Source: an uncultured Flavobacteriaceae bacterium
GTDB taxonomy: Bacteria; Bacteroidota; Bacteroidia; Flavobacteriales; Flavobacteriaceae
DNA: 46,691 nucleotides
Direction: 5' to 3'
Assembly (NCBI GenBank): GCA_938017825.1
Contig: CALIJE010000147.1
Coordinates: 1 to 46,691 of the forward strand
Shown: positions 10,137-42,488 of the stretch, in pieces
How positions within the stretch are numbered: the first letter of the stretch is position 1
How the letters are laid out: each line of letters opens with the position of its first letter
Program-made: the position numbers and the translations under genes
The notes under the pieces: model-generated
Databases searched by the model: none
Told to the model about the DNA's origin: nothing
The model's input: only the letters and a program-made list of their open reading frames with translations

Positions 10137-11219
10137 CTAGGCTTTGATGATTTTTTCTTGATGATTGATCGATTCTTGGTGAATTGCCTTAAACATTCGC
10201 AATACGAACTCCTCGCTTAACCCTTTTGACTCGCCTTCCAAAATCATTTTGCCCAGAATCTCGTTCCAACGATTAGATTGCAAGACCGCAACATTTCGTG
10301 TCTTTTTTAATTTTCCAATATCATCGGCAACCTTCATTCGCTTGCCCATGGTATCGATCAACTGATTGTCGATAACATCGATTTGGGCTCTTAAACCACT
10401 CAATTGACTAGTATACTCTGCTTCCGGGTCAGTTTCTTTTCGTATTCTCAAATCTCTCATAATCTGTACCAAACGATCTGGTGTTACTTGCTGGGCAGCA
10501 TCGCTCCAGGCATTATCGGGATCATGATGTGTTTCTATCATTAATCCATCAAAATTCAAATCCAAAGCGGTCTGTGATACATCAAAAATCATATCGCGCT
10601 TGCCTGTTATATGTGAAGGATCATTGATCAAAGGCAAGTCCGGAAATCTATTTTGAAATTCGATCGCCAATTGCCACTCGGGAATATTTCTGTACTTGCT
10701 TTTCTCATAAGTGGAAAAACCCCTATGAATAGCACCCAACTTCTTAATTCCAGCGGAATGCAAACGTTCAATTCCTCCGAGCCATAAAGCCAAATCAGGG
10801 TTTACCGGATTCTTGACCAAAACGATCTTATCGGTACCTTTTAAGGCATCTGCAAGTTCCTGCATGATAAATGGGCTAACCGTTGAGCGTGCACCGATCC
10901 ACAACAAATCGATATCATGTTCCAAGGCCAATTCTACATGTGCCCTATTGGCCACTTCAGTGGCCGTTTTTAAACCAGTTTCGGTTCTTACTTTTTGGAG
11001 CCACTTTAATCCTAAGGCACCAACGCCCTCAAAATTACCTGGGCGTGTTCTTGGTTTCCAAATACCTGCCCTGTAATAGTTGACATCGGTATCTTTAAGA
11101 CTATGCGCTATTCCAAGAACTTGTTCTTCAGTTTCAGCACTACATGGCCCTGCTATGACTAGTGGATGATCCAATCCCAAATCGTCCAACCATGATCTCA
11201 TTTCCTTTGTATTCTTCAT
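10137..11219 (-). CDS. Bifunctional DAHP synthase / chorismate mutase
   Basis: The N-terminal domain (about 1-260) is a type I-beta DAHP synthase with AGPCSAET (23-30), and it condenses PEP and erythrose-4-phosphate. The C-terminal domain (about 270-355) is an AroQ-type chorismate mutase that starts near LRAQIDVIDNQLI. The 360 residues match the known DAHPS-CM fusion of Bacteroidota and Gram-positives, in which the mutase domain lets prephenate or chorismate inhibit the synthase. It is the last gene of the Phe/Tyr operon, 13 nt after tyrA and just before the terminator. The first shikimate-pathway enzyme thereby falls under the pheA leader. Confidence 0.94.
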   Translation of the reverse strand: MKNTKEMRSWLDDLGLDHPLVIAGPCSAETEEQVLGIAHSLKDTDVNYYRAGIWKPRTRPGNFEGVGALGLKWLQKVRTETGLKTATEVANRAHVELALEHDIDLLWIGARSTVSPFIMQELADALKGTDKIVLVKNPVNPDLALWLGGIERLHSAGIKKLGAIHRGFSTYEKSKYRNIPEWQLAIEFQNRFPDLPLINDPSHITGKRDMIFDVSQTALDLNFDGLMIETHHDPDNAWSDAAQQVTPDRLVQIMRDLRIRKETDPEAEYTSQLSGLRAQIDVIDNQLIDTMGKRMKVADDIGKLKKTRNVAVLQSNRWNEILGKMILEGESKGLSEEFVLRMFKAIHQESINHQEKIIKA

Positions 11220-11232
11220 TTTAATTGATTTA

Positions 11233-12099
11233 CTATTCTATTTTTTTGTTAAGTGGTATTCCGTTTAAAATCTCCTTAATCTTATTGGTGTCGTTCATTT
11301 CGTTGTAGATACCTTTAAAATCGTCTTTTAGCAATAGTTCTTTAAAGGCTTCAAGATTACTGATGTATTCCTCCAGAGTTTCTACGACATTGGTTTTGTT
11401 CTGTTCGAAAATCGGTGTCCACATGGCTGGGGAACTTTTTGCCAAGCGAACCGTACTTTCAAAACCACTGCCGGCCATGTCAAAAATATCGCGCTCGTTT
11501 TTTTCTTTTTCGATTACCGTTTTGCCCAACATAAAAGAACTGATATGAGATAAATGAGAAACATAGGCAATGTGCTTGTCATGAGCTTCTGGATTCATGT
11601 ACCGAATGCGCATGCCCATTTCTTGAAAAAGCTCCAAAGCTTTTTCCTGCAGTTTAAAGGCGGTTTTTTCTACCTCACAAATGATATTGGTTTTGCCATT
11701 GTACAAATTTTCAAGTGCGGCCGACGGGCCTGAAAATTCTGTTCCTGCAATTGGGTGTGAAGCCAAATAGTTTCTTCTTTTGGGGTGATCTTCAAGGGTT
11801 TTGCAAATAAGGCTTTTGGTAGAACCACCATCAAAGACCACGCAATTATCATTTACAGCATCAAGAATTTTTGGTATTTCAGTCAATAGAACATCTACAG
11901 GAATACTAACGATGACCATATCGGCCTCCGACAATTCCGAGTAGCTCGATTTGTAATCGATAATATTCAACTCTAGTGCTTCGTCTAAATGCGAGGCATT
12001 TGTGTCAATACCATAAATTTTGGCGTTAGGCCGTAGGCGCTTAATATCTTTGGCAAAAGAACCCCCAATTAATCCGATACCGATTACAAATACATTCAT
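11233..12099 (-). CDS. tyrA: Prephenate dehydrogenase
   Basis: This enzyme oxidatively decarboxylates prephenate to 4-hydroxyphenylpyruvate, the Tyr branch. The Rossmann motif GIGLIGGSFA (7-16) and the substrate-binding SHPIAGTE (H115) are both clear. It is 288 residues long with no appended chorismate mutase or ACT domain, so any Tyr control should act elsewhere. It starts one base after the aminotransferase stop. Confidence 0.94.
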   Translation of the reverse strand: MNVFVIGIGLIGGSFAKDIKRLRPNAKIYGIDTNASHLDEALELNIIDYKSSYSELSEADMVIVSIPVDVLLTEIPKILDAVNDNCVVFDGGSTKSLICKTLEDHPKRRNYLASHPIAGTEFSGPSAALENLYNGKTNIICEVEKTAFKLQEKALELFQEMGMRIRYMNPEAHDKHIAYVSHLSHISSFMLGKTVIEKEKNERDIFDMAGSGFESTVRLAKSSPAMWTPIFEQNKTNVVETLEEYISNLEAFKELLLKDDFKGIYNEMNDTNKIKEILNGIPLNKKIE

Positions 12100-12100
12100 C

Positions 12101-13246
12101 TTAAAACCGATCTATAGCTTCTTTAATTTTTTCTTGTGTTACGCAGAGCGAAAAACGGAGGTAACCTTCCCCATTACTTCCAAAAATAGTTCCTGGTGTA
12201 ATAAAAATGTTTTTATCGTACAGCACTTTGTCGATAAACGATTCTGCCGATCCGCTCCCAGGGGGAAGTTTAGCCCAAACGAACATGCCCACCGTATTTA
12301 CATCATAGGTACAATTTAAGATATCGGCCAATTCAAATATCAATTGTCTTCTAGAGGCGTAGATCATGTCTAATTGATCAAACCATTCTTGCTTGCTTTT
12401 CAATGCACTTACGGCTCCTTTTTGAATGCCGTAAAACATCCCAGAATCCATATTGCTTTTAACCTTTAATACGGCATTGATGTGGTCTGCACTTCCTAAG
12501 ACCATTCCGACCCGCCATCCGGCCATACTAAAGGTCTTACTCAAGGAATTCAGTTCAAGGGCAACGTCATAAGAACCCTCAACCGACAAAATACTTATTG
12601 GGTTATCATTTAAAATGAAACTGTAAGGGTTGTCATTTACCAATAAAATGTCATTTCTTCGGGCAAAGGTGATCAAAGCGGCAAATTGACTTTCACTTGC
12701 AGAGGCACCTGTGGGCATGTGGGGATAATTCACCCACATGATCTTAATCTTTGATAAGTCTTGTTCCTCTAGCGCAGCTAAATCTGGAAACCAATCATTA
12801 TTTGCTTGAAGATTGTAATACTTTGGTATTGCTCCCACTAGTTTGGTCACCGAAGAATAGGTAGGATAGCCTGGATTAGGAATCAATACCTCGTCTCCTT
12901 CATTCAAGAAGGCCATACTGATATGCATTATTCCTTCCTTGGAACCCATTAAGGGCAAAATCTCGGTCTGCGCATCGACAACTACCTTAAACTTTATCCT
13001 ATAAAAATCTGCTATTGCGCTACGAAGCTCAGGAATACCCTGATAACTTTGGTATTGGTGCGCGTTATCCTCAATCACTGCATTTTGAATAGCCTCAATA
13101 ATTTGTGGCGACGGCGCCAAATCTGGACTTCCTATCCCCATATTGATTATCGGACGTCCTTCGGCAATCAAGCCGCGAACCTCTCTCATTTTTTTAGAGA
13201 AATAATATTCTTCGACGGTATGTAAACGCTCAGCAGTGCGTATCAT
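12101..13246 (-). CDS. Class I/II PLP aminotransferase, probably aromatic
   Basis: A fold-type I aminotransferase of 381 residues. The PLP lysine is K237 in NSLSKTFSMAGWRVG; the PNPGYPTY and NYPHMPTG motifs are conserved. Its position between pheA and tyrA, with an ATGA overlap to pheA, argues that it transaminates phenylpyruvate and 4-hydroxyphenylpyruvate to Phe and Tyr. Sequence alone does not exclude use as an aspartate- or LL-DAP-type aminotransferase. Confidence 0.9.
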   Translation of the reverse strand: MIRTAERLHTVEEYYFSKKMREVRGLIAEGRPIINMGIGSPDLAPSPQIIEAIQNAVIEDNAHQYQSYQGIPELRSAIADFYRIKFKVVVDAQTEILPLMGSKEGIMHISMAFLNEGDEVLIPNPGYPTYSSVTKLVGAIPKYYNLQANNDWFPDLAALEEQDLSKIKIMWVNYPHMPTGASASESQFAALITFARRNDILLVNDNPYSFILNDNPISILSVEGSYDVALELNSLSKTFSMAGWRVGMVLGSADHINAVLKVKSNMDSGMFYGIQKGAVSALKSKQEWFDQLDMIYASRRQLIFELADILNCTYDVNTVGMFVWAKLPPGSGSAESFIDKVLYDKNIFITPGTIFGSNGEGYLRFSLCVTQEKIKEAIDRF

Positions 13247-14070
13247 GATCTTGCATTTTTATATTCGCCCAATACTTTAAAATCTTCAGACATGATGTTC
13301 AAGAGCGATTTTGCTTTTTCAAAATTGGCAAATCCGTCAAAAGTCACATCTACAAAGAAGGCATATTTCCAAGGGGTTTCGATAATAGGTAGGCTTTGAA
13401 TTTTTGTCAAGTTCAAATTGCAATCACTCATTACGTTAAGCATAGCGGCCAAACTACCGCGTTTATGATCGGTTAGAAAGCGAATTGAGGCCTTGTTGAT
13501 TTCTGCCTTTGGAAGTTCCTTGTTCTTTGTTTTTACAATAATAAAGCGGGTCGCGTTGTTTTGTATGGTTTGTATGTTCGGCGCTACGATGTCCAAACCA
13601 TACAAATCGGCCGCCACCTCAGGAGCTATGGCTGCAATGTTTTTCAGCTGTTTATCCTGAATTCGTTTGGCCGTCTCCGCCGTATCGGCATCTTCGACCA
13701 TTTTAATATGAGGGTGTTTTCGCAAAAACTCCTTACACTGCAGCAGCGCCATGGGATGTGAATGCACTTCCTCAATATCCTTGATTTCTTGGCCTTTCAA
13801 TACCATCATATGGTGATTGATATTGAGATAGTGCTCCCCTATGATGTGCAACCTATTATGGTAGATCAAATTGTAATTTGGAATTATTGATCCCGCTATA
13901 GAGTTTTCTATGGCCATTACCCCTTTGCTCGCTGTACCGTCCAACAGCGAATCTACCAAGGAATCGAACGACATGCATTCGACCAATGGAGTATCATCTC
14001 CAAAGTACTCGCGCACCACCTGATGATGATTGGATCCCTTAATTCCCTGTATGGCGATATTTAAACTCAT
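13243..14070 (-). CDS. pheA: Prephenate dehydratase
   Basis: This enzyme converts prephenate to phenylpyruvate. It is 275 residues from the ATG at 14070 (MSLNIAIQGIKG). The frame stays open to an ATG at 14112, but that codon is inside the terminator stem, so the start at 14070 is preferred. Catalytic-domain motifs ENSIAGSI and NNATRF are present. The C-terminal ACT domain has GSLAAML in the position of the usual GALV motif and QSLP in place of the ESRP motif that binds Phe. Feedback inhibition may therefore differ from the classical case. There is no fused chorismate mutase; that domain is on the DAHP synthase. It is the first structural gene of the operon. Confidence 0.95.
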   Translation of the reverse strand: MSLNIAIQGIKGSNHHQVVREYFGDDTPLVECMSFDSLVDSLLDGTASKGVMAIENSIAGSIIPNYNLIYHNRLHIIGEHYLNINHHMMVLKGQEIKDIEEVHSHPMALLQCKEFLRKHPHIKMVEDADTAETAKRIQDKQLKNIAAIAPEVAADLYGLDIVAPNIQTIQNNATRFIIVKTKNKELPKAEINKASIRFLTDHKRGSLAAMLNVMSDCNLNLTKIQSLPIIETPWKYAFFVDVTFDGFANFEKAKSLLNIMSEDFKVLGEYKNARS

Positions 14071-14080
14071 ATTGTTAAAT

Positions 14081-14110
14081 AAAAAAAGTCTCGCTTTTTG
14101 CGAGACTTCC
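14081..14110 (-). terminator. Intrinsic terminator of the pheA leader (attenuator)
   Basis: The minus-strand RNA forms AAGUCUCGC (14108-14100), an A5 loop, then GCGAGACUU (14094-14086), a perfect 9-bp stem that two G-U pairs can extend. Seven consecutive U follow or overlap its end (14087-14081), then AUUU. It ends 11 nt before the pheA ATG, so it can only act on transcripts heading into pheA. Confidence 0.9.
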
Positions 14111-14135
14111 ATATTATATTTTCGATTTCAATATA

Positions 14136-14207
14136 CTACAACAGCCTCGTGCTTCTCTTAAAAAAGAAGTAAAAAAAGAAACGGTTCCAGAAATATTGCT
14201 TTATCAT
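14136..14207 (-). CDS. pheL: Phe/Tyr-rich leader peptide of the pheA operon
   Basis: A 23-codon frame runs from an ATG at 14207 to a TAG at 14136-14138. Residues 5-16 are YFWNRFFFYFFF: seven Phe, two Tyr and one Trp in the whole peptide, with six of the Phe codons in two runs of three around a Tyr. It resembles E. coli PheL in composition and in having two FFF runs. Between the stop and pheA lies a strong terminator. The segment CGAGGCU at the end of the leader (14149-14143) can pair with AGUCUCG (14107-14101) of the terminator's 5' arm (seven pairs, one of them G-U), which would be the antiterminator. A ribosome stalled at the first FFF leaves that segment free; one reaching the stop codon would cover it. 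It is too short for standard gene callers. Confidence 0.85.
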   Translation of the reverse strand: MIKQYFWNRFFFYFFFKRSTRLL

Positions 14208-14225
14208 AATCTAAATTCTGAATGG

Positions 14226-14255
14226 CTAAAGTAAGCATAAAATTGAAAAATCAAA
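14226..14255 (-). promoter_or_regulatory. Promoter of the pheL-pheA operon
   Basis: On the minus strand, TTTG (14255-14252), an 18-nt spacer and TACTTTAG (14233-14226) match the Bacteroidota -33/-7 pattern with one mismatch in the -7 box. Transcription would begin near 14219, about 12-15 nt before the leader peptide ATG. Confidence 0.6.
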
Positions 14256-14278
14256 TTCTGGCAGCATATTTTATTGCT

Positions 14279-14286
14279 TATTTTTG
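14279..14286 (+). promoter_or_regulatory. Candidate -7 element of gldA
   Basis: TATTTTTG matches TAnnTTTG and lies 17 nt before the gldA ATG. No clear -33 TTG was found, so this is tentative. The pheL promoter faces the other way only 45 bp away. Confidence 0.4.
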
Positions 14287-14303
14287 GTGAAATATTACAT
14301 AAA

Positions 14304-15197
14304 ATGTCAATAACGGTCACTAATATCACAAAAGCCTTTGGGTCGCAAACAGCCTTAAACGATGTTTCATTTTCGTTAAAAAAAGGAGAAATTGTGGGGT
14401 TTCTGGGTCCAAATGGAGCCGGCAAGTCGACCATGATGAAGATACTGACTACCTATCATAGAGCGGATAGCGGCGAAGCCATCGTAAATTCATTTGATGT
14501 TCGTTCGGATGTAAAGAATGTCAAAAAAAGCGTGGGGTATCTACCGGAACACAACCCCCTTTATTTAGACATGTATGTAAAAGAATACCTGGCCTTCAAT
14601 GCCAATGTATACAAGACCAACACCTCAAAAATTAGCCAGGTCATTGCTCAAACCGGACTCGCTCAAGAATCACATAAGAAAATAGGACAGCTTTCAAAAG
14701 GCTACCGACAACGGGTGGGCCTTGCCGCTGCCCTATTGCATGATCCCGAGGTCTTAATTCTAGATGAGCCCACAACCGGACTTGATCCAAACCAATTATT
14801 GGAAATTCGAAAACTTATTAAGGAAATAGGAAAAGAAAAAACCATTCTGTTATCTACCCATATTATGAAAGAGGTCGAAGCAGTATGCGACAGGGTATTG
14901 ATCATCAATAAAGGAACTTTGGTCGCAGACAGAAAACTGAGCGATCTAAGAGAAGCTGATGAACAAATTATCGAAGTAGAATTCGATTACCGTGTTGAGG
15001 AAGCTTTTCTGCGCAAACTTCCCCATGTAACCGAAGTTAAAAACATCAGCGGTTTTCTCTATGAAATCAAATTTAGTACCTCAACTGATATGCGACCCGC
15101 AGTATTTGACTTTGCGCACGACAATCAATTGAAAACTTTACAACTTAGTACCAAGAATAAAAATCTAGAAAGTTTGTTTACTGAGCTTACACGTTAA
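14304..15197 (+). CDS. gldA: Gliding-motility ABC transporter ATP-binding subunit
   Basis: This 297-residue ABC ATPase starts at MSITVTNITKAFG (ATG at 14304; the longer frame lacks family similarity). It has Walker A GPNGAGKS (35-42), a signature LSKGYRQR (130-137) and Walker B LILDEPTTG (151-159). The segment GYLPEHNPLYLDMYVKEYLA matches Flavobacterium GldA, which works with membrane partners GldF and GldG in gliding motility. Those partners are not next to it. It stands alone, divergent from the Phe/Tyr operon, and its last 4 bp overlap the convergent gene's stop. Confidence 0.88.
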   Translation: MSITVTNITKAFGSQTALNDVSFSLKKGEIVGFLGPNGAGKSTMMKILTTYHRADSGEAIVNSFDVRSDVKNVKKSVGYLPEHNPLYLDMYVKEYLAFNANVYKTNTSKISQVIAQTGLAQESHKKIGQLSKGYRQRVGLAAALLHDPEVLILDEPTTGLDPNQLLEIRKLIKEIGKEKTILLSTHIMKEVEAVCDRVLIINKGTLVADRKLSDLREADEQIIEVEFDYRVEEAFLRKLPHVTEVKNISGFLYEIKFSTSTDMRPAVFDFAHDNQLKTLQLSTKNKNLESLFTELTR

Positions 15198-23613: not shown

Positions 23614-23715
23614 ATTTCAATCATAAATCAACATTCAATTCACCTCGTAGGAAAATCGAAATTTTAAAACATCACATATCAAGTAAGGAAATAGATAAAG
23701 ACCATTGTCTTTTTG

Positions 23716-23838
23716 GTTATCTGTCCACTCGAAAATGGATAGAATGTAGCACCTACTTAGGCATCGGAAAGTCTCCGAGATATACCAAAGGGTTGCTAAG
23801 GCTTCAAAGGGTCTAATCCCTCCACCTTTCTTGATAAC
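23716..23838 (-). promoter_or_regulatory. SAM-I (S-box) riboswitch of the metH-metH-metF operon
   Basis: On the minus strand P1 is GTTATC (23838-23833) with GATAAC (23721-23716). Inside, the invariant S-box core is present: AAGGTGGAGGGATTAGACCC, then GAAGCCTTAGCAACCC, a P3 hairpin TCGGA/TCCGA, and AGGTGCTA. It ends 102 nt before metH. A short stem, AGAC/GTCT, follows P1, and TTATCT downstream could compete for the P1 3' strand. The output mechanism is not clear. The whole 23614-24000 gap holds only this element and its promoter. Confidence 0.95.
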
Positions 23839-23866
23839 AATTTCAGATTTTTAAATGAACTGGCTG

Positions 23867-40770: not shown

Positions 40771-40822
40771 AAATCAAAAAGTTATAAGAAAGTGAAAGAT
40801 TACTGAACGTAATCTGTTATTC

Positions 40823-40929
40823 GTTATCTGCCCCGCCTATAGCGTGATAGAATTTAGCACCTTCTTCGTTATAGACCAAAGGGTTGCTAAGGTTTCATAG
40901 GGTCTAATCCCTCCACCTTTCTTGATAAC
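40823..40929 (-). promoter_or_regulatory. SAM-I (S-box) riboswitch of the metY-thrA operon
   Basis: On the minus strand P1 is GTTATC (40929-40924) with GATAAC (40828-40823). The core reads AAGGTGGAGGGATTAGACCC, GAAACCTTAGCAACCC and AAGGTGCTAAATTC, all as in the S-box consensus. It is strongly alike in sequence to the one at 23.7 kb. The 40697-41076 gap holds this element, a possible platform hairpin and the metK terminator. A 7-bp hairpin (AGATTAC/GTAATCT, 40797-40815) follows P1. Confidence 0.95.
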
Positions 40930-41021
40930 TATTCAATACGTGTTTGAACTTTGAATTGACAAATTAAGAACGGAAAAATGTATTATCCTAACAATAGTTG
41001 AAAAAAATCGAAATCTATATC

Positions 41022-42333: not shown

Positions 42334-42405
42334 AATTAGTTTATTTTTCAAGAACGAATTTGACGGGGGTCGCTTTAGGTAGTACGATACGGTTGGTCGC
42401 ATCAA

Positions 42406-42475
42406 CTGCTTTAGCATTTTTAAGGCCTGAAACCAATTCAGGTTTAGAGGTTGCAATCAGTCAAATCCTTCCTCT
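42406..42475 (-). promoter_or_regulatory. Probable SAM-II riboswitch in the metK leader
   Basis: On the minus strand P1 is AGAGG (42475-42471) with CCTCT (42450-42446). The loop between contains GATTTGACTGATTGCAA, nearly the conserved SAM-II loop (GAUUUaaCcG..UUGCAA). After P1 comes TAAACC, a 6-bp hairpin insert (CCTGAA/TTCAGG), then AAAAATGCTAAAGCAG, matching the conserved AAAUG..GCUAAA of the SAM-II 3' strand. CTG of the loop can pair with the final CAG as the outer pseudoknot. It starts 7-8 nt after the predicted transcription start. Its 3' end is 73 nt from the metK ATG, farther than usual for this class. Confidence 0.72.
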
Positions 42476-42488
42476 TATTTTGAGCAAG

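Follow-up and report, generated by a model that had tools for sequence, protein, structure and literature searches.

The window analysed here, a 46,691-nucleotide stretch of DNA from an uncultured Flavobacteriaceae bacterium, carries an aromatic operon on its minus strand. It opens with pheA (prephenate dehydratase, 13243–14070; PF00800, E = 4.9e-59), followed by a class I/II aminotransferase (12101–13246; PF00155), tyrA (prephenate dehydrogenase, 11233–12099; PF02153 and PF20463) and a DAHP synthase fused to chorismate mutase (10137–11219; PF00793 and PF01817). These domain matches agree with the gene identities given in a preliminary description of the DNA. When the 80 best-matching loci of 535 relatives were compared, 77 had all three downstream genes (aminotransferase, tyrA and DAHP synthase–chorismate mutase) together on one strand; the other three loci are short. 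Direct reading of the minus strand upstream of pheA also returned the order previously claimed: a promoter-like −7 box, a 23-codon frame, its stop codon, an intrinsic terminator and then pheA. The open reading frame list puts the pheA start at 14112, with an alternative ATG at 14070; the latter is the likely start and 14112 an unlikely one, because that frame begins inside the terminator. Elsewhere on the minus strand, the window holds two SAM riboswitches and one SAM-II riboswitch (40821–40931, 23714–23840 and 42401–42480), all at gathering score.

The short frame (14136–14207, minus strand) runs from an ATG at 14207 to a stop at 14138–14136 and encodes MIKQYFWNRFFFYFFFKRSTRLL, comprising seven Phe, two Tyr and one Trp among its 23 codons; the products of the operon, judged by their domains, match the amino acids of these codons. 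The frame was present in all 80 of the best 80 of 535 relatives, a set made up of Flavobacteriaceae and unnamed metagenome records that includes Maribacter, Zobellia, Flagellimonas/Muricauda, Croceivirga, Muriicola, Eudoraea and others. Leaders were extracted by pattern from 78 of these loci and by eye from L057 and L076, the contig of the latter starting within the leader so that its first codons are missing; both were left out of the alignment, which holds 79 sequences (the window and 78 of the best 80 loci). In the codon table built from this alignment, with L006 excluded from codon 17 onward, Phe was kept at codon 6 in 78 of 79 sequences, at codon 10 in 77 of 79, at codons 12 and 14 in 79 of 79 and at codon 15 in 77 of 77, and TTT and TTC were swapped at codons 6, 10 and 12. 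Codons 7, 11, 13 and 16 mostly interchanged Trp, Tyr and Phe, with Thr at codon 11 in seven sequences and His at codon 13 in one as exceptions, and codons 2–4 and 17–19 varied more freely than the aromatic codons. Given the TTT/TTC swaps and the Phe/Tyr/Trp interchange, the codon pattern in these sequences suggests that aromatic codons are under selection. Codons 14 and 15 (14168–14163 in the window) were peculiar in showing scarcely any synonymous change among the best 80 relatives (TTC in 79 of 79 and TTT in 76 of 77), unlike codons 6, 10 and 12, and none of the helices for which we tested pairing in the aligned relatives accounts for this near-invariance.

The tract is itself T-rich, and the element might accordingly be a T-box, a riboswitch or a protein-binding leader in which the Phe-rich frame is a by-product of base composition. 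We regard this as exceedingly improbable, since codon 13 (Tyr, as TAC or TAT, in 73 of 79 aligned sequences from the best 80) and codon 14 (TTC in 79 of 79) interrupt the T tract and are kept, no like arrangement occurred elsewhere in a background scan of 81 records, and no Rfam family reached its gathering score at the element, where Phe_leader was the sole match with E < 0.01. At gathering score the T-box covariance model matched nothing in the window, nor did it match anything in 14000–14320 up to E = 10. The background scan, which covered the window and the 80 loci (best 80 of 535; 1.15 Mb, counting both strands), found 95 short frames with at least eight F/Y/W in 12 residues, of which 79 were the pheA leader. 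When such a frame also had to be followed 10–60 nt on by a strict terminator, defined as a perfect stem of at least 8 bp with T6, the scan returned 57 places, each of which was the pheA leader, and no other place in the 81 records qualified; the strictness of this rule means that some leaders were missed.

The promoter-like box TACTTTAG (14226–14233, minus strand) lies 26 nt upstream of the leader start codon and is one letter off TAnnTTTG, the −7 consensus reported for the phylum (PMC9723704, PMC7366714). Among the 79 aligned sequences from the best 80 of 535 relatives, the form TAnnTT[AT]G occurred within 45 nt upstream of the leader start in 75, as against 30 of 1085 background windows; 72 of these 75 had the box 25–29 nt upstream, and just 3 of the 79 had the exact TAnnTTTG. 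In 53 of the same 79, position −3 of the leader start is an A, a base with which initiation in F. johnsoniae is reportedly more efficient (PMC6847099). Judging by the box, transcription would start near 14221, and translation would begin at the leader ATG.

The terminator (14081–14108, minus strand), identified by direct reading and folding, has a 9-bp perfect stem with arms AAGTCTCGC/GCGAGACTT (14108–14100 and 14094–14086) and a run of seven T (14087–14081). Across 75 distinct rows of the alignment of the best 80 relatives, 99.9% of cells were paired, and 57 cells carried double-sided changes against a shuffled mean of 18.2, a count matched in 0 of 500 shuffles; these and the following shuffle counts are not probabilities, because shuffling ignores kinship. 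The innermost pair accounts for 38 of the 57 changes. A rival reading is translational control, in which ribosomes ending at the leader stop would re-initiate at pheA. Earlier work has suggested re-initiation for leader genes (PMC4833913), and in 20 of the 79 aligned sequences (best 80 of 535) the T-run ends only 2–3 nt upstream of the pheA match. The distance between T-run and pheA, however, varies from 2 to 99 nt among these sequences, whereas that from leader stop to T-run is steady at 51–58 nt in 78 of 79, and a stem with a T-run is found in 79 of 79, which makes re-initiation very unlikely and favours a transcriptional attenuator. The single exception in stop-to-T-run spacing is L006, at 64 nt; here (L006:2862-2985) a small indel brings the leader stop early, ahead of segment 2 as defined below, with the terminator and segment 2 otherwise kept.

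A second structure competes with the terminator for its 5′ arm. The preliminary description had proposed that CGAGGCU at 14149–14143 (segment 2, within codons 20–22) pairs with AGUCUCG at 14107–14101 (segment 3, also in the terminator 5′ arm) to give an antiterminator; this pairing exists and covaries in relatives, where the leader, its stop, the terminator and the antiterminator are all kept in the 80 loci (best 80 of 535). In the 75 distinct rows, 91.0% of antiterminator cells were paired, and the five core pairs (columns 60–64 with 104–108) formed in every row. Double-sided changes affected 15 cells, where shuffling gave 4.4 on average and reached 15 in 0 of 500 runs; seven of the 15 were in the core and eight at the outer pair 58/110, which was unpaired in 43 rows. 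The window itself shows one compensated change, from G-C to A-U at columns 61/107, and column 121 in the terminator 3′ arm is altered to match. When the strands were slid as a control, pairing reached at most 48.7% for the antiterminator and 59.1% for the terminator; the antiterminator slid by one column still gave 13 double-sided changes, yet only 47.9% of its cells were paired.

Folding gave the same alternatives together with a third helix that would hide segment 2. This predicted 1:2 helix joins segment 1 (14178–14198, minus strand; codons 4–10) to a 3′ strand at 14129–14148, which starts in codon 20 and takes in 7 nt beyond the stop codon. When the leaders of the window, L047 and L018 were folded at full length, each gave this helix along with an inner hairpin and the terminator. 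Folded alone, 14149–14098 forms an 18-bp composite hairpin of −13.3 kcal/mol. Relative to shuffled sequences, the fold z-scores were −3.24 for the full leader, −5.21 for the terminator segment and −1.00 for the leader lacking the terminator 3′ arm. With that arm removed, the window and L047 folded into the antiterminator and L018 and L087 into the 1:2 form, so that in the latter folds the antiterminator would win only if something opens the 1:2 helix.

Among relatives, the outer part of the 1:2 helix is clade-specific in sequence and mostly still complementary (CAAUAU:AUAUUG, ACGUAU:AUACGU, GUAUAU:AUAUAC and AAUUAU:AUAAUU). Over 64 distinct sequence pairs from the best 80 relatives, with the best register permitted, its mean duplex score was 11.54, compared with 10.25 (sd 0.20) after shuffling the post-stop segments (0 of 500). 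The best outer duplex used the main register in 62 of the 79 aligned sequences (best 80 of 535) and another register in 17. The middle part was 93.5% paired in the aligned relatives, where its covariation was not above that of shuffles. In the sequences compared, covariation is seen in both the terminator and the antiterminator and, though less uniformly, in the outer part of the 1:2 helix. A proposed pause hairpin, 14182–14174 with 14159–14151, fared less well: it does appear in the fold of the window lacking the terminator 3′ arm but shows no covariation above that of shuffles among the best 80 relatives, where 81.0% of its cells were paired, equal to the shuffled mean of 81.0. An adjacent hairpin (columns 39–45 with 50–56) was paired in 95.8% of cells among the same relatives, with weak covariation.

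We also compared segment 2 with the terminator in 47 more widely drawn leaders (29 from family, 12 from class and 6 from phylum genomes). This set leaves out L122, L124 and L129, which have leader frames with a terminator missed by our routine, L110 and L114, which have no leader, and L111 and L112. Segment 2 scored a mean of 20.4 against its own terminator arm, compared with 13.9 (sd 0.5; maximum 15.6) against shuffled arms, and the weakest matches were of 4 bp (L133) and 5 bp (L136). Leader tail and terminator arm change together, for example as CAGGAUUG paired with CAAUCCUG in L087, L088 and L092. These comparisons bear on whether the frame might instead encode a functional hydrophobic microprotein whose transcript the terminator merely ends, a reading that the strong conservation of the peptide among near relatives would favour. 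The C-terminal codons nevertheless track the antiterminator, tails elsewhere in the family are unrelated (...SRSQDCAMVI in L087) yet pair with their own changed terminators, and distant leaders have the aromatic codons in common; we accordingly give a microprotein very little credence and favour a leader peptide read for its codons. The onset of segment 2 follows the last aromatic codon by a median of 9 nt in these 47 leaders (range, 5–18; 10 nt in the window), a spacing that, given the size of the ribosome footprint, fits the edge of a stalled ribosome. Segment 2 should be left just free by a ribosome that has stalled while the last Phe codon occupies its A site, and should be covered by one at the stop codon.

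On the strength of these comparisons, the element is very probably a classical ribosome-mediated transcription attenuator sensing Phe and Tyr, as the preliminary description had held; the kept leader and the covarying terminator and antiterminator support that reading. Under this proposal, the promoter just upstream would give a short leader RNA on which a ribosome translating the 23-codon peptide follows RNA polymerase, and ribosome–polymerase coupling is implied by the mechanism. With ample charged Phe-tRNA and Tyr-tRNA, the ribosome would reach the stop codon and cover segment 2, the terminator would form and transcription would end before pheA. If Phe or Tyr became scarce, the ribosome would be expected to stall in the aromatic run (codons 10–16), opening the 1:2 helix and leaving segment 2 free to pair with the terminator 5′ arm. 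The resulting antitermination would allow readthrough into pheA and the aminotransferase, tyrA and DAHP synthase–chorismate mutase genes. Where no ribosome is present, the 1:2 helix would form, making termination the default.

The leader is found well beyond the near relatives. In a phylum draw of 296 genomes, all 29 other same-family genomes listed have it (L082 being the same place as L010). With a cut-off of E = 0.1, a covariance model of the leader matched 191 of 199 family genomes and found nothing in the other 8, the 191 including weak matches and multiple matches per genome at any position relative to pheA. At class level, a Phe/Tyr-rich leader frame was found in 15 of 19 genomes examined, out of 33 with a pheA match; six same-order genomes with weak matches were left out. 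The four class-level genomes in which no leader was found before pheA (L110, L111, L112 and L114) belong to two genera of one family, another genus of which has the leader (L128). In L111 and L112, pheA comes immediately after another gene, presumably aroA as judged by motif. At the 20 places assigned to the same phylum (L131–L150, taken from 189 genomes), a Phe/Tyr-rich frame with a terminator was seen at six (L131–L136, with L135 and L136 doubtful); the other 14 showed no such combination, L150 having the frame and no terminator.

Some lineages carry two leaders. One class-level family had a pheA match in 21 of 31 genomes, and all 21 had a Phe/Tyr leader frame in the 560 nt searched upstream. 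Five of the 21 (L173, L174, L175, L177 and L194, of which L175 is the same place as L123 and L177 the same as L124) had two frames in series before pheA. Our terminator routine called a terminator after both tandem leaders in L173 and one or none in L174, L175, L177 and L194. Two leader frames and two terminators also precede pheA in L126, from a different family. At L193 and L194 (G517:C13:32411-33207), pheA reads as two separate pieces with two leader frames upstream. We lean towards attenuation being an old, class-wide control of aromatic synthesis in which leader, antiterminator and terminator co-evolved as their sequences diverged and some lineages came to stack two leaders.

Similar leaders precede other operons in the genome from which the window comes. 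Upstream of hisG (L161, G000:C27) there is a His leader, MRNKNTHHHFYTGCQAR, with a terminator, and a His-rich leader frame with a terminator was found before hisG in 17 of 17 loci (L151–L167). The anthranilate synthase gene (L171, G000:C11) is preceded by a Trp-rich leader, MKIRNTNTWWWNNSRQLS, after which a hairpin can be seen by eye and no terminator was called by the routine. Before ilvD (L168, G000:C93) lies an Ile/Val/Leu-rich frame, VKVFIENVVLIIVVP, with a terminator, which is probably an Ilv/Val leader. Two homoserine dehydrogenase matches in the same genome both sit inside long frames, for which reason the heads of those operons were not seen. With His, Trp and probable Ilv/Val leaders in one genome, attenuation may therefore serve several of its operons.

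The arrangement resembles known attenuators in other phyla. In E. coli pheL-pheA, a leader peptide with Phe codons, a terminator and alternative hairpins are followed by pheA. The window element likewise has a Phe-codon leader, a terminator and alternative hairpins ahead of pheA but, unlike the E. coli system, has Tyr codons too, an operon that includes tyrA and DAHP synthase, and a Bacteroidota-type promoter box. Rfam's Phe_leader model (RF01859) matched it over its full length at 36.2 bits (E = 6.7e-05), short of the gathering score of 55 bits, with part of the model's long helix falling in a gap or marked as non-standard; two of 17 other loci matched below threshold as well (32.8 and 31.3 bits). 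By Rfam's own rule the element thus stands outside Phe_leader, though it would appear to work alike. The his, trp, leu, ilv, thr and other attenuators of Proteobacteria and Actinobacteria, phyla other than that of the window, likewise combine regulatory codons with an antiterminator and a terminator; the sequence relation was compared through Rfam only. Vitreschak et al. reportedly predicted some leader attenuators in Bacteroidetes/Chlorobi in 2004.

Attenuation here is not new in kind, its precedent being a 2021 study whose authors we take to be Guerin et al. In F. psychrophilum, that study (PMC9723704) found strong indications that amino acid operons are preceded by leader-peptide attenuators, and it named pheA and hisG as having 5′ elements that are present in other genera and had no Rfam hits. 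The pheA element described there concerns the same gene in the same bacterial family as the window; the passages compared here neither write out a leader nor test its pairing, and they do not follow the element outside the family (PMC9723704). Long 5′ untranslated regions of B. thetaiotaomicron have been described as containing frames reminiscent of leader peptides (PMC7366714), and a 2010 paper, aware of no demonstrated leader peptide system beyond Proteobacteria and Actinobacteria, added Firmicutes (PMC2965389). Our literature search, with most subscription papers and all supplements outside its scope, found no paper that writes out this leader. What is added here is the leader sequence, the pairing tests, the class-wide spread and the tandem leaders of some lineages, the last two being less expected than the rest. 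A leader sequence and alternative pairings can now be given for a conserved pheA 5′ element in flavobacteria, comparable to those picked up in transcriptome data (PMC9723704).

If the proposed attenuator is real, one short switch would place the synthesis of Phe and Tyr and the first step of the shikimate pathway under common codon control. The element would also offer a ready reporter for transcription–translation coupling in Bacteroidota, a question to which the papers listed in our search gave no direct answer. Should the class-wide reading also hold, ribosomes would have to trail the polymerase at so short a distance that they control termination within ~140 nt of where transcription starts, and to do so in a phylum whose translation initiation is independent of Shine–Dalgarno reliance.
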